Shown here: piece by piece, positions 9,469 to 28,617 of the stretch
Numbering within the stretch: position 1 is the first letter of the stretch
Layout: every line of letters starts with the position of its first letter
NCBI GenBank assembly: GCA_944383905.1
Contig: CALWRI010000002.1
Location: 100,913-164,912, forward strand
Direction of reading: 5' to 3'
Length of the DNA stretch: 64,000 bases
Origin: an uncultured Christensenellaceae bacterium
GTDB lineage: Bacteria > Bacillota > Clostridia > Christensenellales > UBA3700
Made by a program: the position numbers and the translations under genes
Notes under the pieces: model-generated
Database searches by the model: none
What the model saw: only the letters and a program-made list of their open reading frames with translations
What the model was told of the DNA's origin: nothing

Positions 9469-9508
9469 AAATATAGCCGCATCCTTTCGGGAAGCGGTTA
9501 TATTTTTT
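9469..9508. terminator. Bidirectional terminator between spoVG and FGGY kinase operon
   Basis: A 12-bp stem (9469-9480 with 9494-9505) has a T-run on the plus strand and an A/T-rich flank giving Ts on the minus strand. It ends spoVG and probably also the convergent 14.5-9.5 kb operon. Confidence 0.85.
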
Positions 9509-9541
9509 CAGTCAATAGATATTCTTGCTTTTTCCTGATCG

Positions 9542-11101
9542 TCAGAGCCTGTCCTTTTCCATCATCTTGTAAAGCTCGTTGTATATCGGCAGGTTGCGCT
9601 CATAGATCTTCTTGTAAACTCTCGTATAATACTGCATATATTTTGCGTGATTCTCCTCCGACGGTACAAATGTGTCCGTGACTCTCACCATATTCGAAAC
9701 GGCGTTTTCGAGAGAATCGTAGTAGCCGAGCGAGGTAAAGCTGACTATCGCACAGCCGAGTCCGCTCGTCTCGTAAGTCTGCACGCGGTACACCTCTCTG
9801 CCCATTATATCCGCGGTTATCCTGCATATTATGTCGCTTTGCGAGCCGCCGCCTGCGACAGCGATGCGATTGATCTTGCAACGCGCTCTTTTCTGGAGGT
9901 TTTCCAGCCCGTCGTAAAGCGCATAACCGAGACCTTCGATGATCGCCCTGTAAACGTGAAGACGGGTATGTATATCTGAAAAGCCTATCATTACGCCCTT
10001 CGCCTGCGGCGTCTTGAGACCGGGTCCCCAATAAGGCTGAAGCACGAGTCCGTTGCTGCCGAGAGGCACTTTTTCGAGCTTTTCGTCGAGGAGTCTTTCA
10101 GGTGAAATGCCCAGCTTTTCCGCCTCTATCTTTTCGTTGAGGGCGAATTGGTCTCTGAACCACGAAACCATCCAGAATCCTCTGAATATTTGTATTTCGG
10201 GATTGAATTTCCCGTTCGCGACCGCGGTATACGCGGGCATGAAGGTCTCCGGCTCGACGTACTTGTCCGTCGTGATCTCTACCGAAGCCGCCGTACCGAG
10301 ACTAACCGACGCGACGTTTTTGGCAAGACAGCCGTTGCCGACTGTTTCGCACGCCTTGTCTGCGCCCGTCGCTATGAAAGGCAATCCTTCTTTTATGCCC
10401 GTTTCGAGACTGCATTGCTTTGTGATATGTCCGATCACGTCTCCGGGATTGACGAGCTCGCACATCTTGTCCACCGGACAGCCGAAGACGGGAAAATTGA
10501 GAGCGTATTTCGTCATCCAGTCGCGTTTGCGGTAATCGTAAGGAAATTTCGCCGCCTGTCCCGCTCTGCTGTCCGCGAGTCTTCCCGTAAACTTGAAATT
10601 GTACCACGCCGTCGGCATGACTATCTTTGCCGTGCGCTCCCATACGTCGGGCTGATTGACGCGCACCCAATTCGTATACGATGTCTTTCTCGAAACTCTC
10701 GCAGTCTCGCCCATACCGACTATCGCGTAAAGAAATCTGTTCAAAAGCGGCATCGGGTCGGGGCATTTGACCTCTCTCTTGTCCATCCATAGAATGGCGT
10801 TGCGGGTGGGATTTCCTTCCTTATCGAGGAAAAACAAAGAATTTCTTATGCTTGTCGCGCATACTCCGACGACGTCGTTCCATTTGTCGCCGACCTTTTG
10901 TTTAAGCTCGCGCGAAACGGTGCAAATGCCTTGCCAACATTCGATCGGATCCTTTTCCGCCCTGTTGTCGTTTTGAGAAATGTAAGGCGGTTCGTCGTGT
11001 TTCGTCTTTTCGATAAGATTGCCGTGTTTGTCGAAAAGAAGCGCACGGGTACTTTGAGTACCGATGTCAAACACGAGAACGAGCGGTTCAGTACTGTGCA
11101 T
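9542..11101 (-). CDS. FGGY-family carbohydrate kinase
   Basis: A 519-residue sugar/polyol kinase. The first phosphate loop VFDIGTQSTRALLFD is near residue 10. A central TGADKACETVGNG precedes the FGGY C-domain adenosine-site motif AVAGGGSQSDIICR. These kinases phosphorylate glycerol, xylulose, ribulose, erythritol and similar substrates using ATP. The sequence does not decide which. It is the last gene of a four-gene run and overlaps the end of the AMP-dependent ligase by 14 bases. Its lipid-type neighbours make a glycerol-like substrate conceivable, but that is inference. Confidence 0.85.
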   Translation of the reverse strand: MHSTEPLVLVFDIGTQSTRALLFDKHGNLIEKTKHDEPPYISQNDNRAEKDPIECWQGICTVSRELKQKVGDKWNDVVGVCATSIRNSLFFLDKEGNPTRNAILWMDKREVKCPDPMPLLNRFLYAIVGMGETARVSRKTSYTNWVRVNQPDVWERTAKIVMPTAWYNFKFTGRLADSRAGQAAKFPYDYRKRDWMTKYALNFPVFGCPVDKMCELVNPGDVIGHITKQCSLETGIKEGLPFIATGADKACETVGNGCLAKNVASVSLGTAASVEITTDKYVEPETFMPAYTAVANGKFNPEIQIFRGFWMVSWFRDQFALNEKIEAEKLGISPERLLDEKLEKVPLGSNGLVLQPYWGPGLKTPQAKGVMIGFSDIHTRLHVYRAIIEGLGYALYDGLENLQKRARCKINRIAVAGGGSQSDIICRITADIMGREVYRVQTYETSGLGCAIVSFTSLGYYDSLENAVSNMVRVTDTFVPSEENHAKYMQYYTRVYKKIYERNLPIYNELYKMMEKDRL

Positions 11102-12740
11102 TTTCTCCTCCTGTTTCTTCGAGTTTTCTGTAATCGACTTTGCCTATCTGTGTGAGAGGCAGACGGTCGCGGAATTCGACTTGTCGCGGCATCGCGTATT
11201 TGAGCATTTTTGCCCCGATCTCTTGAAGAACAGCCTTTTTCAACGTGTCTCTGTCCGCGCCTTTACACGGCTGAACTATGAGTTTCACCTGCGGTTTGCC
11301 GTCCACCGTCATTGCCACGACGCAACTACGCCTGACTCCTTCGACCTTGTTGACTACGTTTTCTATCTCCTGCGGAAACACGTTGTTTCCGGCAATCTTT
11401 ATTACCCTTTTTTTGCGGTCCACGAAATAAACGAAGCCGTCCTCGTCTATCCTTCCCATATCGCCCGTACGCACCCACTTTGCGTCGTCATAATCGAAAA
11501 ACGCTTTTTTCGTACCTTCTTCGTCCGCGTAATATCCCGTCATCATCGTGTTGGAACTGATGCAGAGATTGCCTACGGAGCCGCACGGCAACGGCTTGTC
11601 CGAGTCGTCGAATATCCCGAAACGGGTGTTTTCGAAGGGCTTGCCTATCGACCCTTCGCGGTAATTCTGCGGCGTATTCACGCAACATATCCCCGCTTCC
11701 GTAAGTCCGTACCCCTCGTTGAGTCTGATCGGATTTCCCGCCGCCGCGGTAGCGTTGTAAAACCTTTCCTTCACGCTGTTGCTCAGCTTGTCTCCTCCGC
11801 AGTAGCAGTGTTTGAGCCGTCTGACGTATTTACCCTTGAAATACCCGCTGTCAAGCATCTTCGCGAACATATTGGGCACGCCCGAAATAAACGTCGCGGA
11901 CGTGGATCTCAACAGTTTGCACGCGCGCTTGGGATCGAATTTAGGCATAAGCACGACCTGCCCGCCCGCGCATATAGTCGTATGCATACATATCCCCAGT
12001 CCGAAGGTGTGAAATATCGGTAGCACCATCAGCATCCCGTCTCTGTCGTCGACGGGTTTGCCTCCTATAAGCGCAAGCGCGTTTTCCGCAAGGCAGTTGA
12101 ACGCAGAATTGTCGAGCATGACCGTCTTCGACGCGCCCGTCGTACCGCCGCTGTGCATATACACCGCAATATCCTTTCCCCTTATCTCGGGATAATCGGA
12201 TTTTTGCTCATCAAAACTTATTTTGCCGCTTATCACGTCGCGGTATCGGACGACTTTGCCGCCGTAAGGCACACTCTTTGCCGCCTTTGCCGTGTGCAAC
12301 CTGTAAAAAGGTTTGTACGCCGCGGGCAGATAGTCCGCCGCGCTTGCAATTATTAACGGCAAGTCGAGATCTTTCAGATACTCCGCGTATTTGGGATAGA
12401 ATTCCTCAAACAGCACAGCCGCGCAGGCGTTCATATCCTTGACGAATCCGCGCAGCGCCTCTCCCGTAACGAGCGGATGGACCGCGTTGACGACCGCTCC
12501 CGTCTTGTTTATTGCATAAAACGCGACGATAGCGTCGGGAATATTGGGAAGACACAACACGACGTTGCCGCCTTTTCCGACGCCCTGTGACCGCAGATAA
12601 TCGGCAAGCGCGTCGCAATGCGCGAAAAATTCTCCTTTGGACAGTGTGCGTCCGTAATATGATATGCACTTGTTGTCGTCCGACAGATGCGCGGTATTGT
12701 CCGCGAAATGACGGTACATCGATTTATCAGAATACCGCAT
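11088..12740 (-). CDS. Acyl-CoA synthetase (AMP-forming ligase)
   Basis: A 550-residue member of the ANL adenylate-forming family. It has the phosphate loop HSGGTTGASK near residue 192 and the A5 motif EGYGLTEAG. The A7 and A8 region is TGDMGRIDEDGFVYFVDRKK with the hinge. The catalytic lysine is in the C-terminal IGKVDYRKL. All key residues are present, so it should be active, most likely activating a fatty acid to its CoA thioester through an acyl-adenylate. It overlaps the upstream PAP2 gene (14 bases) and the downstream kinase gene (14 bases), suggesting coupled translation and a shared pathway. Confidence 0.88.
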   Translation of the reverse strand: MRYSDKSMYRHFADNTAHLSDDNKCISYYGRTLSKGEFFAHCDALADYLRSQGVGKGGNVVLCLPNIPDAIVAFYAINKTGAVVNAVHPLVTGEALRGFVKDMNACAAVLFEEFYPKYAEYLKDLDLPLIIASAADYLPAAYKPFYRLHTAKAAKSVPYGGKVVRYRDVISGKISFDEQKSDYPEIRGKDIAVYMHSGGTTGASKTVMLDNSAFNCLAENALALIGGKPVDDRDGMLMVLPIFHTFGLGICMHTTICAGGQVVLMPKFDPKRACKLLRSTSATFISGVPNMFAKMLDSGYFKGKYVRRLKHCYCGGDKLSNSVKERFYNATAAAGNPIRLNEGYGLTEAGICCVNTPQNYREGSIGKPFENTRFGIFDDSDKPLPCGSVGNLCISSNTMMTGYYADEEGTKKAFFDYDDAKWVRTGDMGRIDEDGFVYFVDRKKRVIKIAGNNVFPQEIENVVNKVEGVRRSCVVAMTVDGKPQVKLIVQPCKGADRDTLKKAVLQEIGAKMLKYAMPRQVEFRDRLPLTQIGKVDYRKLEETGGENAQY

Positions 12741-13602
12741 CGAGCAACCTTTCGAGTTTATTACTGCCGTCCAGAACCTGTTTGTCGAGCTTCTTGCCGT
12801 ATGCCACCGCGATAACGATAGCCTGGATGAAAAACGCTATGCCGAACCCGATCGTGACGTCGCTCAGATAATGATGACCGTCCGATATGCGCGCAAGCAT
12901 CGTGACGACGACGAACGCGAGCGCAACCAAAAAAACCTGTTTTTCCTTGTCTTTCAGCCTTTCGTCTATGCCGCAAAGCGGGAGAAGAAGAAACAATGAC
13001 GCCGCAAATGCGGAATGACCCGACGGGAAAGAATCCCCTCCCGTACGCTCAATCCTGTACCACGGCGTAAACATCGCGTCCCCCGTCTGCGTATCGACGT
13101 AACGCGCTCTGCCCCATATCGTCTTCAGAAGATAAACTATGACTGCGGTGAGCGCGACCGAGAACAGTACGACGAGCGCCCATTTCTTCATTGCGGCAAG
13201 TTTTTCTCCGTCAATCCTTTTCGTAACCGCATAAACAGTTACGGTCAAAGGCACCGACAACACCGCTCCGAGAGCGAGAGCGAAGAGTTTGCTTGAAAAA
13301 AGCATCTCTCCGAAATCGAGAAAAGTCAGGGCACCCGCGACGTATCCGAGAATATAAAACAAATATGTCTTTGCTTTCTTTTTTTCGTTGATCTCCGCAT
13401 TGCGTCCGAGCACGAAACAAGCGAAAGCAGACAGCACGAAAGCAGGCGCTTTGCCTATCGCTTCGTATATTTTGCCGAACGCGTTGTCTCTCGCATAAAG
13501 AACCTCGGAGACTTTGAGGTCAAACAATGTGGCTACGGCAAAAAAAACGAGAATCGCCGCAGCGACGAACGACGTCCAGATATACAATTTTTTACTATTC
13601 AA
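12727..13602 (-). CDS. PAP2-family membrane phosphatase (copy 2)
   Basis: A 291-residue multi-pass membrane protein, roughly six helices. All three PAP2 catalytic motifs are present: C1 KTIWGRARY, C2 PSGHSAF with the general-acid His, and C3 ARISDGHHYLSD with nucleophile His and Asp. Members remove phosphate from phosphatidate, undecaprenyl diphosphate or related lipids at the membrane. It resembles the preceding gene in order of motifs and in FTPWY before motif C2, so the pair looks like an old tandem duplication. It overlaps both neighbours. Confidence 0.9.
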   Translation of the reverse strand: MNSKKLYIWTSFVAAAILVFFAVATLFDLKVSEVLYARDNAFGKIYEAIGKAPAFVLSAFACFVLGRNAEINEKKKAKTYLFYILGYVAGALTFLDFGEMLFSSKLFALALGAVLSVPLTVTVYAVTKRIDGEKLAAMKKWALVVLFSVALTAVIVYLLKTIWGRARYVDTQTGDAMFTPWYRIERTGGDSFPSGHSAFAASLFLLLPLCGIDERLKDKEKQVFLVALAFVVVTMLARISDGHHYLSDVTIGFGIAFFIQAIVIAVAYGKKLDKQVLDGSNKLERLLDAVF

Positions 13603-14521
13603 GATCTGCCACTTCCTTTTCTTTATTTTCCGCTATACGGAAATTGTATCTGCCCCTTCTGAAAAACAGGTATCTGCAAAGGACGTATATCCAATAAGTA
13701 ACGTACCCGCCGACGAGGACATCAGACAAAAAATGTGCGTCGTCGACGATACGAGCGACCGCGACCACCGCGGTAAAAGCCACGCAGCATACGTTTGCGG
13801 CAGCGCGTAAAGACTTGTCGCATTTTTTCGGATAAAGATCGCACAGCACGCAAAGTACAAAGACGTGCGCCGCGCTCGACGTGTGCCCTGACGGGAACGA
13901 AGTATAATGATAATCGGGATTGGGATTTTCTCTGTTGATATTTATTTTATACCACGGCGTAAAACCGTCGAAATCACCCTCTTTGAGCATGTCGCGGTAA
14001 CGCATCCTGCAAAATATGTTCTTGCTTATCTGAATGACCGCAAGAGTGACGAGAGTGAATACGATCAGAAAAACTCCGTATTTGAACACCTTGTTCATCG
14101 TGCTCGTTTTTATAAGTGAGCCGACCCACAGCGTCAGTGCTCCTATTCCTGCCGCTCCGACTACGGAAAACGCCGCGAGATGCGGAGGCTCGTTGAGCTT
14201 GGTACCTGCGTAAAAGAAAAAGAACCAACCGCCGAATATCGCGAGACAGCCGATTGCTTTGATCAAAGCCTTCTGATATTTTTTCTCAAAAAGAGGGGCG
14301 TTGAAAAAGACTATGACTCCTCCGACGGGAACGGCAAAGTAAGCGGGATATTCTCCTATAAGCGCAAAGAGGTCGGCGAAAAAGCTGTCGCCGTCCGAAA
14401 GCGCATGATTGATCTGAAGGTCATACTTTGTCGCGACAGCCATCAGCGCTATAAAAAACGCAAACCCTATGGCGTTCACGATCCAGAAAGTCGTTCTTTT
14501 AAATCTTCCTTCCGTTTCCAT
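13595..14521 (-). CDS. PAP2-family membrane phosphatase (copy 1)
   Basis: A 308-residue membrane protein with C1 KNIFCRMRY, C2 PSGHTSSA and C3 ARIVDDAHFLSD, all catalytic residues kept. It is longer than its neighbour between FTPWY and the PSGH motif, where an Asn/Pro-rich insert sits. It is the first gene of the four-gene operon. The RBS GAGGA is seven bases from the ATG, directly after a hairpin in the leader. Substrate is unknown; phosphatidate or a polyprenyl diphosphate are the usual candidates. Confidence 0.9.
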   Translation of the reverse strand: METEGRFKRTTFWIVNAIGFAFFIALMAVATKYDLQINHALSDGDSFFADLFALIGEYPAYFAVPVGGVIVFFNAPLFEKKYQKALIKAIGCLAIFGGWFFFFYAGTKLNEPPHLAAFSVVGAAGIGALTLWVGSLIKTSTMNKVFKYGVFLIVFTLVTLAVIQISKNIFCRMRYRDMLKEGDFDGFTPWYKININRENPNPDYHYTSFPSGHTSSAAHVFVLCVLCDLYPKKCDKSLRAAANVCCVAFTAVVAVARIVDDAHFLSDVLVGGYVTYWIYVLCRYLFFRRGRYNFRIAENKEKEVADLE

Positions 14522-14532
14522 GTATTATCCTC

Positions 14533-14585
14533 GTGCGCAGATGCGCACCCTATATTATTATATAATCTTTTAGCGTGATAATCAA
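14533..14585 (-). promoter_or_regulatory. Promoter and 5' hairpin of the PAP2-ligase-kinase operon
   Basis: On the minus strand, TTGATT (14585-14580) is followed after 17 bases by TATAAT (14562-14557). The predicted transcript then begins almost at once with a perfect GTGCGC/GCGCAC hairpin (14548-14533), just before the ribosome site. Such 5' hairpins can stabilise mRNA. No ligand-binding motif is recognised. Confidence 0.7.
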
Positions 14586-14701: not shown

Positions 14702-14731
14702 CAAAAAAAAGCACCCGAAATTCGGGTGCTT
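14702..14731 (-). terminator. Terminator of lipoprotein gene
   Basis: A near-perfect palindrome (AGCACCCGAA arms, 14710-14731) is followed on the minus strand by a run of eight T. The plus side also has a T-rich flank. Confidence 0.9.
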
Positions 14732-14753: not shown

Positions 14754-15728
14754 TTACTTGGTGAACATCTTTTCGGTCAGGTCTGCGGGAGTGAATCCCT
14801 CTTCGTTGCCGAAGTAAGAGAACTGTCTGAAGCTGTTCAGAGTGATCGTGGTGTCGATGAAGCCTGCGACCTGCATCAGGTAAGATTCGGTCAGATTGAG
14901 GCTCTTGATATAACCGTTGTCCCATATCGTGATGGTCAGTTTGATCTCCTTGAATTCGAAACCGTCGGGGGTAACGCCGCTGCTCTCGAGCATGTACATC
15001 ATCTGCTTGGTATATTCGACGGTGGAGAGCTTGGGATCCGCAACGATCGTGAAGGTATAGGTGCCGTCGTTGTTGCTTACGACAGTGCTGCTCTTCGCCG
15101 CATCGTATGTATTCTCGTCGATGTCGTACATCCAGATCTTGGTGGGGTTAGCCGCCTTTGCGCTCTGATATTTTTCGATGTCGTTAAACTGTTCGACGGG
15201 CTGGAAGGTCTTGCCCTCTTTGAAAGCCATATCGTAAACGCCCTTTTCCTCGTCGAGAGTTACTACCTGAAGGTCCTTCTTGAGACCGCTGCGGAAGTAG
15301 ATGTCTTCGGTCACGCCCTCTTTGGTGTAAGAGGTCTCTTCCCAGATGTAGACCTTCATGACGGAACCGCCTATACTGCCGGACAGGTTGTTGCTGAACA
15401 TGGTGTAGTCGCCGTCCGCGCTGCCGTTTCTTATGCTCTGCGATTTGACGAACTGCGTGAACTTAACGCCGAGAACCTCGGTAACGATGGAACCGGTCGC
15501 ATTGGAGGCTATATAGTCAGCCGCATAGAAGTTGTCGACGCCCGCGAGAAGCATCTCGATAGCGCTCATATCCGCGGTGATTGCGGTAGCGGATTCTTGA
15601 GTCGGTTTTTCGTCGCCGAAACCTTCGATACCGGAAGTGTCGACCACGGGATCTTTGCACGCCACGAAAGACATGCAGGTGAAAGCGATTACCAAAACCG
15701 ATACGATTGCGATAATGATCTTTTTCAT
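14754..15728 (-). CDS. Predicted lipoprotein, unknown function
   Basis: A 324-residue secreted protein. It has a lysine-start signal peptide, a hydrophobic core and the lipobox SFVAC, so the lipid-modified cysteine is residue 24. The mature part is hydrophilic and probably beta-rich, with no domain I recognise. In general form it resembles clostridial LolA/LppX-like lipoproteins, but this is not established. The start was placed at 15728 rather than an in-frame ATG at 15755 because AGGAGA lies seven bases upstream of it and the signal peptide begins there. It is monocistronic. Confidence 0.8.
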   Translation of the reverse strand: MKKIIIAIVSVLVIAFTCMSFVACKDPVVDTSGIEGFGDEKPTQESATAITADMSAIEMLLAGVDNFYAADYIASNATGSIVTEVLGVKFTQFVKSQSIRNGSADGDYTMFSNNLSGSIGGSVMKVYIWEETSYTKEGVTEDIYFRSGLKKDLQVVTLDEEKGVYDMAFKEGKTFQPVEQFNDIEKYQSAKAANPTKIWMYDIDENTYDAAKSSTVVSNNDGTYTFTIVADPKLSTVEYTKQMMYMLESSGVTPDGFEFKEIKLTITIWDNGYIKSLNLTESYLMQVAGFIDTTITLNSFRQFSYFGNEEGFTPADLTEKMFTK

Positions 15729-15786
15729 ATTCTTCTCCTTATAATAACTACCCATAAAATGGTTATTTTGTCGGGGTTCAATTGAT

Positions 15787-16082: not shown

Positions 16083-16967
16083 ATGAGTAGCTTTTTTATA
16101 ACTACCGAAGCGACAAGCGACTACCCTTCCTGTCTTTCCGAAAAAGATTTTGCCGTTATACCGATGTCATACAGCGTATGCGGAAAAGATTTTGACGGAG
16201 AAAAGGAAAAACTTTCCCCGAAAGAGTTTTACGACGCCTGCCGCAACGCGAAAACAAAAGAGGATCTGCCGACCACGGCGATGGTAACGGCGTATACGGC
16301 AAAAGAATTTTTCACTCCTCTGCTCCGTGCGGGGCACGACGTGCTTCACATCGGCTTTTCTTCCATGCTCAGCGGAACTTACGATCAGATCTGCGCCGCG
16401 GCAAAAGAACTGAAAGAAGAATTTCCCGAAAGAAAGATCACCGTCGTCGATTCGAAATCGGCTTGCTTTGTCGAAGGTCTCGTCGTTTATTACGTTCTGC
16501 GTGCACGCGACAACGGCGCGAGCTATGAAGAATGTGTTTCTCTCGCGGAAGATCTCTCCGGCAAGGCTTGTGGATTTTTCACGATCGAAGACATCAACCA
16601 TCTCTGCCGCACAGGCAGAGTCGGAAAAGCCGAAGCGTTTGTCGGCACTACCCTTCACATCAAACCGATACTGCACATTGATAAAGAAGGCAGACTCATA
16701 CCCGTGACCAAGGCAATTTCCAAAAAACGCGCAATGCACGGCGTTGTCGATCTGGCAAAAAAGAAGATGTTGCCCGCAAGCGAGCAAAAACTTGTCGGCA
16801 TAGGTCATGCGGACGCTTACGACGAAGCGCTTAATCTCGAAAAAATGGCAAAAGCAGAACTCGGCGTGCAAAACACCGTGATATTCGACGTCGGATCGGT
16901 CATCGGCTCTCACGTCGGCGCCGGTATGCTCGCGCTCGTGCTCCTGTGCTCTGACAGATCTGTCTGA
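16083..16967 (+). CDS. DegV family fatty-acid-binding protein
   Basis: A 294-residue DegV/FakB-type protein. The N-terminal TTEATSDYP is the variant of the TDSTADL motif. TTAMVTAYTAKEFF and GFSSMLSGTYDQ line the fatty-acid head-group pocket. VVDSKSACFVEGL and LCRTGRVGKA follow, then the family ending VGSVIGSHVGAGML. Characterised FakB proteins present a bound fatty acid to kinase FakA for phospholipid synthesis. Whether this copy does so is inference, and no fakA is in the window. AAGGA precedes the ATG by nine bases. Confidence 0.92.
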   Translation: MSSFFITTEATSDYPSCLSEKDFAVIPMSYSVCGKDFDGEKEKLSPKEFYDACRNAKTKEDLPTTAMVTAYTAKEFFTPLLRAGHDVLHIGFSSMLSGTYDQICAAAKELKEEFPERKITVVDSKSACFVEGLVVYYVLRARDNGASYEECVSLAEDLSGKACGFFTIEDINHLCRTGRVGKAEAFVGTTLHIKPILHIDKEGRLIPVTKAISKKRAMHGVVDLAKKKMLPASEQKLVGIGHADAYDEALNLEKMAKAELGVQNTVIFDVGSVIGSHVGAGMLALVLLCSDRSV

Positions 16968-17244: not shown

Positions 17245-17640
17245 ATGGCAAAAAAAGGACAAAAACAAATAAAGTACTCGCCTGAATATAAAATATCTGT
17301 TATAATCGATATGCGGATGAACCACTTGGGCTACGAAGAGACCGTAAGAAAATACTGGCAATGCCGCTCCGGAGAAGAAAAAAATTATACTGCAAGGCTC
17401 AAGCTGTGGGAACGCATTTATCTCGAAGAAGGACCGGAGGGACTTATGAAAGAACGCAGAGGCAGAACCACGAAAGCCGAGAGCCCCAGGGTTGGCAAAC
17501 CAAAAAAGCTCCGCCCAGACGTCGAACTCGACCTTATAGCGGAAAACCAGCGGCTAAAGATGGAAAACGAATACCTAAAAAAACTTATGGCCTCGACTCA
17601 ACGGGAGGTCGGGAACAAGAACGCGCAAAAGCGCTCATAG
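17245..17640 (+). CDS. IS3-family transposase OrfA
   Basis: A 131-residue helix-turn-helix protein (SPEYKISVIIDMRMNHLGYEETVRKYW) followed by a leucine-rich, charged segment (ENQRLKMENEYLKKLM) typical of OrfA dimerisation. It binds the element ends and, alone, usually limits transposition. AGGAGGTG precedes the ATG by about nine bases. It terminates in its own frame at 17640 unless the ribosome slips at 17577-17583. Confidence 0.9.
   Translation: MAKKGQKQIKYSPEYKISVIIDMRMNHLGYEETVRKYWQCRSGEEKNYTARLKLWERIYLEEGPEGLMKERRGRTTKAESPRVGKPKKLRPDVELDLIAENQRLKMENEYLKKLMASTQREVGNKNAQKRS
17577..17583 (+). other. Programmed -1 frameshift slippery heptamer
   Basis: Seven consecutive A residues sit in the zero frame as A AAA AAA, inside the OrfA codons for Leu-Lys-Lys. 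Slipping back one base joins OrfA to the open OrfB frame, giving KKTYGLDST after the shift. This is the usual IS3-family arrangement for making the OrfAB transposase. Confidence 0.85.
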
Positions 17641-18476
17641 TCTCGGAGTTGAGGCATACTTATCCTCTCAAAGATCTTCTCTCGTTTGCAAACCTTGCGA
17701 GAAGCACTTATTATTATCACCTGAAACGGCTCAACCGCCCCGACAAATATCTGCACGAAAAAGCGGAAATATGCAATATATTTCGCAAAAACAGAGGCTG
17801 TTACGGCTATCGAAGGGTCGGTTACGCGCTGCGCAATCTCGGCTACGTCATAAACCACAAGACAGTGCTCAAACTCATGGATTCGCTCGGACTCAAAGGC
17901 AAACGCGGCAAAGGGAAATACCGCTCCTATAAAGGAGAGATCGGCAGGATTGCGCCAAATGTATACGGCAGGGATTTCTCGGCACAAAAAGCGTACGAAA
18001 AACTCACGACCGACGTCACCGAATTCAGCGTCTGCAACGAAAAAGTGTATCTCTCCCCGATAATGGATCTGTACAACTCCGAAATAATATGTCACAGCAT
18101 CTCGCGAAGTCCGAACTTCGAACAGACGAGAGATATGCTGACAAAACTGCGCAAAGTATTGCCTGAAAATGCCCGACCCGTTCTCCACTCCGATCAGGGC
18201 TGGCAGTATCAGATGAAGGAATATCAGAGTTTTCTACGATCGGCGGGAATAGATCAGAGTATGTCGAGAAAAGGCAACTGCCTTGACAACAGCCCGATGG
18301 AGAGCTTCTTTGGAAGACTGAAAACGGAGATGTTTTACGGAGAAACATTCAGCTCCGCAGACGATTTTATTTCAAAACTCGAAGAATACATATCCTATTA
18401 CAACAACGAACGGATATGTTTGAAACTCAAAGGTATGAGTCCCGTACAATACAGGACTCTTGCAAACGGGATATAA
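17580..18476 (+). CDS. IS3-family transposase OrfB part (made as OrfAB fusion)
   Basis: The catalytic DDE integrase-like domain, about 299 residues after the shift. HTH_21-type residues (YYYHLKRL, then NRGCYGYRRV) precede the core. The three acidic residues lie in TTDVTEF, HSDQGWQY and NSPMESFFG. Exactly 35 residues separate the second D from E, the IS3-family DD(35)E spacing. The family ending YYNNERICLKLKGMSPVQYR is intact. The 5' limit given is the frameshift point, since no independent start with a ribosome site was seen. Confidence 0.9.
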   Translation, partial: KTYGLDSTGGREQERAKALIVSELRHTYPLKDLLSFANLARSTYYYHLKRLNRPDKYLHEKAEICNIFRKNRGCYGYRRVGYALRNLGYVINHKTVLKLMDSLGLKGKRGKGKYRSYKGEIGRIAPNVYGRDFSAQKAYEKLTTDVTEFSVCNEKVYLSPIMDLYNSEIICHSISRSPNFEQTRDMLTKLRKVLPENARPVLHSDQGWQYQMKEYQSFLRSAGIDQSMSRKGNCLDNSPMESFFGRLKTEMFYGETFSSADDFISKLEEYISYYNNERICLKLKGMSPVQYRTLANGI

Positions 18477-28454: not shown

Positions 28455-28524
28455 ACGCAGTCCTCCTTAAAAATAGTGATACAGCAGAGCCGTTGCAATA
28501 AAATTTTATAAGAATAAGATTTTA

Positions 28525-28617
28525 CAGCGGACGCAACACAACACCGCAAGCATTCGCTTTTCGTTTGAAGGCGACATCCCATCCTTCAACACTTAACGCG
28601 TTGTATTTACTCTGCTG
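28525..28617 (-). promoter_or_regulatory. Tetrahydrofolate (THF-I, folT) riboswitch
   Basis: On the minus strand the leader of folT carries the ordered conserved segments of the class I THF riboswitch. They are GAGTAAAT, CGCGTTAAGTGTTG, GGATGGGATGTCG, ACGAAAAGCGA, GCGGTGTTGTG and GCGTCCGCTG. The closing P1 stem pairs CAGC (28617-28614) with GCTG (28528-28525). It ends about 70 bases before the folT start. By known function, bound tetrahydrofolate would reduce folate-uptake gene expression. Confidence 0.94.

Follow-up and report, generated by a model that had tools for sequence, protein, structure and literature searches.

We report a four-gene cassette in a 64,000-nucleotide window (the whole stretch analysed, positions 100,913 to 164,912 of contig CALWRI010000002.1 from an uncultured Christensenellaceae bacterium), in which two membrane phosphatases of the PAP2 superfamily (PAP2a and PAP2b), an adenylate-forming enzyme (LIG) and an FGGY kinase (KIN) follow one another. 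Its parts combine in modules instead of making up one fixed pathway, and we tentatively propose that, in a lineage without fatty-acid synthesis, the cassette may serve to bring scavenged membrane lipid back into use. The window genome is a 1.69-Mb draft, labelled here G000, of genus g1 in family f1, and its four cassette genes are the following.

13595..14521, minus strand: PAP2a, PAP2-superfamily membrane phosphatase and first gene of the cassette (PF01569; motifs PSGH and AR-x5-H-x3-D)
12727..13602, minus strand: PAP2b, second PAP2 phosphatase, with a TTG start (PF01569)
11088..12740, minus strand: LIG, adenylate-forming enzyme of fatty-acyl-CoA-ligase type (PF00501, PF13193)
9542..11101, minus strand: KIN, FGGY kinase (PF00370/PF02782) from a distinct subfamily whose members often adjoin a homologue of alkyl-dihydroxyacetone-phosphate (alkyl-DHAP) synthase (AGPS)

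The genes lie head-to-tail, and in the open reading frame (ORF) table PAP2a overlaps PAP2b by 8 bases, PAP2b overlaps LIG by 14 and LIG overlaps KIN by 14, just as an earlier sequence-only reading of this DNA had described with its overlaps of 8-14 bases; each of the four passes its main Pfam cut-off. That reading also treated the genes as a unit and named a lack of neighbourhood in close relatives as a refutation, which counts taken from match coordinates in 46 family genomes did not bear out. The order PAP2-PAP2-LIG-KIN is kept in all 13 genomes of g1, G000 included, and in both genomes of g3 (the second PAP2 of G008 being seen only by BLAST clustering), which gives the full four-gene order in 15/46. 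Beyond these genera the parts combine differently: g2 has PAP2-PAP2-KIN in 6/6 genomes, with LIG elsewhere in five and without a match in G005; g5 (17/17) and g6 (5/5) have PAP2-LIG and no KIN orthologue; and the cassette occurs in none of the three g4 genomes, where its parts lie on different contigs. Across the family, PAP2 and LIG are adjacent in 37/46 genomes, LIG homologues (at least 38% identity) occur in 45/46 and KIN orthologues (at least 46% identity) in 24/46. In two genomes of another family, f7, PAP2-LIG-KIN stands ahead of SpoVG and MurC, as it does in the window.

Judged by sequence, both phosphatases belong to the PAP2 superfamily, with PF01569 scores of 58.3 bits for PAP2a (cut-off 27.2) and 71.9 bits for PAP2b. 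They share 29% identity and are the only two PAP2 matches in the whole G000 genome, and the best matches of PAP2a in other genera reach 38-46% identity. The claim that all catalytic motifs are intact held for the catalytic residues, which are complete, and not to the letter: the C2 motif is PSGH in both proteins, while C1 reads K-x6-R-Y for R-P and C3 opens with A-R for S-R. PAP2 was found in 46/46 family genomes, as expected for an essential function, and the undecaprenyl-pyrophosphate (Und-PP) phosphatase UppP (PF02673) had no match in G000 and passed its cut-off in 4/46 family genomes, against 10/14 controls. The four are G007, a carrier of the cassette; G033, with a partial match; and G009 and G010, two of the three genomes of g4, a genus without the cassette PAP2s. 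The missing UppP makes Und-PP recycling by at least one PAP2 a serious rival or second function, and at least one of them may indeed also recycle Und-PP. Taken further, the cassette could be envelope housekeeping, the PAP2 pair acting as Und-PP and/or phosphatidylglycerophosphate (PGP) phosphatase, with LIG and KIN unrelated and held in place by operon inertia near murC, the second gene past KIN. However, Und-PP recycling needs neither a ligase nor an FGGY kinase, yet PAP2 and LIG are neighbours in most of the family and in f7; moreover, G007 carries both the cassette and UppP, and two PAP2s are kept in g1, g2 and g3 where one should suffice. We regard this explanation as somewhat unlikely.

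By its domains and motifs LIG combines an AMP-binding domain (PF00501, 230.4 bits) and the C-terminal domain (PF13193, 36.9 bits) with the class motifs of long-chain fatty-acid-CoA ligases (SGGTTGASK, YGLTE, TGD...DRKK and P-x4-GK). Its best NCBIfam matches are long-chain-fatty-acid-CoA ligases, the best at 299.4 bits against a cut-off of 766, and it stays under the cut-off of each of the 25 top-scoring families listed; therefore, it is not assignable at equivalog level. G000 has a single LIG match.

The setting of the cassette is a lack of fatty-acid synthesis genes, which were searched in 31 genomes, 19 of them family members including G000. FabB/F (PF00109) was found in 2/31 (G046 and G049) and 0/19 family genomes, with controls at 14/14, and FabA/Z (PF07977) in the same two alone and again in 0/19 of the family, with controls at 9/14; the lineage, having no type II synthesis, seems incapable of producing fatty acids itself. 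PlsX was present in 31/31 genomes (controls 8/14) and PlsY in 26/31 (G000 included, 15/19 of the family, controls 8/14), with no PlsY match in G002, G057 and three of the 13 g1 genomes (G015, G017 and G019), in which the first acylation may depend more on a different route. For G000, where PlsY is present, KIN as the sole source of lysophosphatidic acid through PlsY absence was rejected. In G000, plsX and the RNase III gene share 4 bases (L207:7907-9564) and an ORF read as Smc follows; in the Bacillus order, fabD, fabG and acpP lie between plsX and rnc.

KIN passes the PF00370 and PF02782 cut-offs and is thus an FGGY kinase, one of three in G000 at E <= 1e-20, the others being a XylB-like kinase (328.2 bits) and a genuine GlpK (692.9 bits). 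Its strongest NCBIfam match is the XylB model TIGR01312 at 245 bits, missing the cut-off of 380.25, and against the GlpK model TIGR01311 it scores 128.9 bits (cut-off 590.35). It is 28% identical to the G000 GlpK, which lies on contig C5, where a GlpA-like match stops about 1.7 kb before the GlpK match; we take this pair as a glycerol operon and not as evidence for the operon of KIN. When aligned with its own-genome GlpK, KIN keeps R86 and D248, the latter invariant in a 32-row alignment (A1, 32 of 63 rows used), and has N87, K249, S137 and S273. Position 87, which presumably aligns with GlpK E84, is D in 68/76 AGPS-type rows and N in 28/30 PAP/LIG-type rows (D in the other two), and K249 is found in 139/143 rows. 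We take positions 137 and 273 to be the GlpK pocket aromatics Y135 and F270: no aromatic occurs at 137 in the 135 rows shown of 143, and 273 is T or S in 139/143. The pocket is perhaps roomier than that of GlpK, and an acceptor larger than glycerol is plausible. These pocket differences make a plain glycerol kinase unlikely, and together with the missed GlpK cut-off and the true GlpK elsewhere in the genome they led us to discard KIN as an ordinary glycerol kinase.

FGGY kinases phosphorylate polyols and sugars, so that KIN could also act in catabolism, on a free polyol or a ketose-like sugar, and merely share the promoter of a lipid module. The XylB match, a KIN sequence without any feature pointing to a lipid site, and the PAP2-LIG core standing without KIN in 22/46 family genomes are consistent with such a role. 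However, KIN falls short of the XylB cut-off, a second XylB-like kinase and GlpK are present in the same genome, no sugar transporter, isomerase or aldolase was seen among the annotated cassette neighbours, and members of the subfamily are frequently accompanied by a GlpA-like dehydrogenase and an AGPS homologue. A catabolic KIN is in our judgement unlikely.

These partners came from the neighbourhoods of 40 matches outside the family (three of them next kinases) and of the best 80 named loci, from several phyla, with partner bit-score thresholds for the latter of our own choice. KIN orthologues occur in 73/347 genomes of the order by row count, at identities of at least 42% against at most 29% for the next kinases (E <= 1e-55), some genomes being counted twice in the KIN counts, once in the genome set and once as a named record (e.g. 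L125 and G023), and among the matches listed the closest to KIN are uncultured Christensenella/Christensenellaceae records at 85-87% identity. The commonest setting is a GlpA-like protein, a pyridine-nucleotide oxidoreductase, DUF1667, KIN and an AGPS homologue. Of the best 80 named loci, 50 have an AGPS homologue on the strand of KIN and no more than 4.5 kb from it, 40 have all four partners, and 19, some of which lie at the end of a contig, show none of the scored partners. The five-gene AGPS set is exemplified by L081:4933-11566 and by L134, L135, L140 and L158, and it is found in Clostridia, Spirochaetota, one Thermotogota record and others; in the Lachnospiraceae loci L158, L170, L176, L186 and L187, AGPS comes ahead of the kinase. 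Among 63 KIN rows of the genome set and window, 26 have AGPS, 23 have PAP2/LIG and 14 have neither, and therefore the kinase also exists apart from both.

Among solved structures, the AGPS homologues have matches to alkyl-DHAP synthases (E 6e-73). In an alignment of the 76 of 78 rows longer than 450 residues, the Tyr whose replacement defines the variant of structure 4bca is kept in 72, the three His in 74, 72 and 74, and the Arg in 74. The four without the Tyr all come from g4 (three genomes, one of them twice), where loci L033, L034 and L035 have AGPS beside the kinase with the active-site Tyr lost and most His positions changed; these changes perhaps mark a gene that was decaying, or taking on a new function, before the sister genera lost it altogether. 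At E <= 1e-10 no AGPS homologue was matched in G000, which removes a working AGPS elsewhere in this genome as a candidate, and none was found in f1 genomes outside g4.

In a kinase tree of 128 of 143 sequences (those under 450 residues and duplicates removed, sequences cut at 560 residues), f7 and f1, with g4 included, form one clade with support 91 among the AGPS-type kinases, and the PAP/LIG label requires two changes; support at the deeper forks of this midpoint-rooted tree, made by a quick method without bootstrap, reaches only about 80-82. The f3 genomes G137 and G309 have the AGPS operon at the address of the cassette, beside SpoVG and MurC. In G309 and G357 a LIG homologue (34-35% identity) directly precedes the AGPS operon, and the association of ligase with kinase may therefore have arisen more than once. 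KIN appears to derive from a separate, apparently undescribed ether-lipid-like operon. AGPS itself is not new, since its homologues have already been reported in many bacteria according to the accessible part of PMC11868695; as far as the accessible part of PMC9702350 goes, the anaerobic plasmalogen pathway is described as starting from diacyl lipids. FGGY and alkyldihydroxyacetonephosphate were not found together in open PubMed Central texts, nor was a description of the PAP2-ligase-kinase gene set, and the parts of the DUF1667 literature available describe an oxidoreductase trio resembling the GlpA-like, pyridine-nucleotide oxidoreductase and DUF1667 proteins.

With such an ancestry, the cassette could remain an ether-lipid unit, in which KIN, now without AGPS, would feed 1-alkyl-glycerol-3-phosphate from dietary ether lipids into phospholipids. 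The position of KIN among the AGPS-type kinases and the KIN-side SpoVG/MurC address common to the AGPS operon of G137 and G309 and the f1 and f7 cassettes are in line with this, but the absence of AGPS from G000 and from f1 outside g4, the altered active site in g4 and the N in most PAP/LIG-type kinases, against D in most AGPS-type ones, at the E84-equivalent position all speak against it, and we consider it very unlikely.

Around the cassette, the following features were recognised.

14557..14585, minus strand: promoter-like site TTGATT-17-TATAAT (motif scan and same-genus alignment)
14709..14731, minus strand: terminator-like hairpin between LIPO and PAP2a (hairpin scan)
14754..15755, minus strand: LIPO, lipoprotein-like gene upstream of PAP2a (conserved position, predicted half-barrel)
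~9475..9512, minus strand: hairpin 3' of KIN that may serve as terminator both here and for the convergent SpoVG gene (-21.3 kcal/mol, z -2.43)
16083..16967, plus strand: DegV-family protein, divergent neighbour (PF02645, 202.3 bits)

The sequence-only reading described one strong promoter ahead of the cassette. A TTG-A/C-type first hexamer and TATAAT are found by eye in 11/13 aligned same-genus upstream regions, L038 and L045 being the two without the pair, where the start codon may be misplaced; the site alone is weak evidence, with 7 promoter-like sites found against 6.0 +/- 2.5 expected by chance. At the other end of the cassette, SpoVG lies convergent to it, between KIN and MurC.

Much of the family keeps LIPO on the upstream side of PAP2, and in g2 the spacing between the two genes ranges from a 4-base overlap to a 46-base gap, a more operon-like arrangement. 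It has no Pfam or NCBIfam match, and it carries an N-terminal hydrophobic helix and a conserved Cys33 (alignment A2, 30 of 38 rows; fold run on 8 sequences). Its AlphaFold2 model (pLDDT 87.4, pTM 0.82) is a predicted half-barrel, for which structural alignment placed LppX (Z 10.3), LprG (10.1) and RseB (9.9) on top, with the OmpG porin at 9.6. The guess of a LolA/LppX/LprG-like protein preceded the modelling, after which LppX and LprG ranked top, and LIPO is possibly of this kind.

Two further observations concern the window itself. An integrase-core (rve) transposase-type ORF of 371 residues lies beside the DegV gene (17245-18476, plus strand), preceded by a shorter overlapping ORF, and it had no match among 43 other neighbourhoods compared. 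At gathering threshold, Rfam gave a single match in the window, a tetrahydrofolate (THF) riboswitch at 28523-28616 on the minus strand (RF01831, 79 bits).

Based on these findings, we propose that scavenged membrane lipid could be re-used as follows. First, the surface lipoprotein LIPO would hold or deliver lipid, and the PAP2s, whose characterised members have outward-facing active sites, would strip phosphate from exogenous phosphatidic, lysophosphatidic or alkyl-lyso lipids, at least one of them possibly doubling as the Und-PP recycler. The resulting uncharged mono- or diradylglycerol would then cross the membrane. Inside, LIG could convert free fatty acids to a thioester, either acyl-CoA or a different one, that would support re-acylation alongside PlsX/PlsY, while KIN would re-phosphorylate a glycerol-type acceptor, possibly a mono-acyl- or alkyl-glycerol, and return it to phospholipid synthesis. 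The substrates, the direction of flux and the joining of the products into one pathway are all inferred. A more specific version, which we hold to be distinctly unlikely, is that KIN is a glycerolipid FGGY kinase from an undescribed anaerobic ether-lipid operon, in which AGPS would run in reverse and release the alkyl chain as alcohol, and that a fatty-acid-auxotrophic lineage recruited it, with the PAP2s and an acyl ligase, for scavenging by an outside phosphatase and an inside kinase.

Several results weigh against lipid re-use by the cassette. LIG lies outside it in 6/6 g2 genomes, and 22/46 family genomes keep the PAP2-LIG core and have no KIN orthologue. General synteny accounts for part of the conservation, as SpoVG and MurC, and DegV in g1, g5 and g6, are also kept. 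The loss of UppP offers the PAP2s another job. FabB/F is absent from 29/31 searched genomes, a background that is not cassette-specific, and loss across most of the sampled order makes it the setting of the cassette, not its signature; likewise, with PlsX and PlsY present, LIG and KIN are not the sole route into phospholipid. For LIPO, the hairpin at 14731-14709 sets PAP2a apart and gives LIPO its own terminator, the LppX/LprG matches have an rmsd of 4.2-4.8, with the porin tied and a background Z of 7-8, and Foldseek returned two matches at E <= 0.001 with TM-scores of at most 0.30. The displaced LIG of g2, the missing KIN and the scattered parts in g4 also tell against the single four-enzyme pathway of the sequence-only reading. 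Its scheme of activating an acyl chain and a polyol and then dephosphorylating to a glycolipid fared no better, as the cassette has no glycosyltransferase and the PAP2s may recycle Und-PP. From its proposal that lipid is made or recycled, recycling is supported more than synthesis. Its lipid role as such gained ground, and the lipid context is stronger than the earlier reader could know, through the lack of FabB/F and FabA/Z, the fatty-acid type of LIG, the grouping of KIN with AGPS operons and, weakly, LIPO. We therefore rank re-use of scavenged lipid first, as a tentative choice, followed by envelope housekeeping, a free-polyol kinase and, last, residual ether-lipid metabolism.

If true, the proposal would name a lipid-salvage unit in uncultured gut-type Clostridia whose searched genomes mostly lack fatty-acid synthesis, and could aid their culturing on media supplied with fatty acids or lysolipids. 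A further pointer is to a subfamily of kinases whose pocket is non-glycerol-like and which, in anaerobes, accompanies an AGPS homologue. In the accessible parts of PMC3617469 and PMC7911779, the oxygen-dependent AGMO is called the sole known alkylglycerol-degrading enzyme, and an anaerobic route of alkylglycerol breakdown, if true, would be new.

The cassette resembles several known systems in part. An FGGY kinase is common to it and the glycerol operon GlpA/GlpB/GlpK, and a GlpA-like dehydrogenase and DUF1667 also occur in the AGPS-type operons; however, the true GlpK of G000, with its GlpA-like neighbour, sits elsewhere, unlike KIN. With the FadD and acyl-ACP-synthetase mode of fatty-acid activation, LIG shares the enzyme class and matching motifs, but it differs in adjoining PAP2s and in falling below the NCBIfam cut-offs. 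For FakA/FakB-PlsX-PlsY incorporation of exogenous fatty acids in Gram-positive bacteria, the likeness lies in the genome, where no FabB/F or FabA/Z was found and PlsX and PlsY are present, and in the DegV neighbour of the cassette, as DegV proteins include the FakB fatty-acid carriers; the cassette differs by its adenylate-forming ligase, PAP2s and FGGY kinase. With the mycobacterial LprG/LppX carriers, LIPO may share the half-barrel predicted for it, and it has an N-terminal hydrophobic helix and the conserved Cys33, although identity is only 6-8% over aligned residues and LIPO has no Pfam match. Finally, AGPS-dependent ether-lipid synthesis, described for agps of Myxococcus xanthus in the accessible part of PMC11868695, is approached by KIN relatives that adjoin an AGPS homologue keeping the Tyr, His-His-His and Arg residues, whereas the window genome, without AGPS, retains the kinase beside its PAP2s and ligase.

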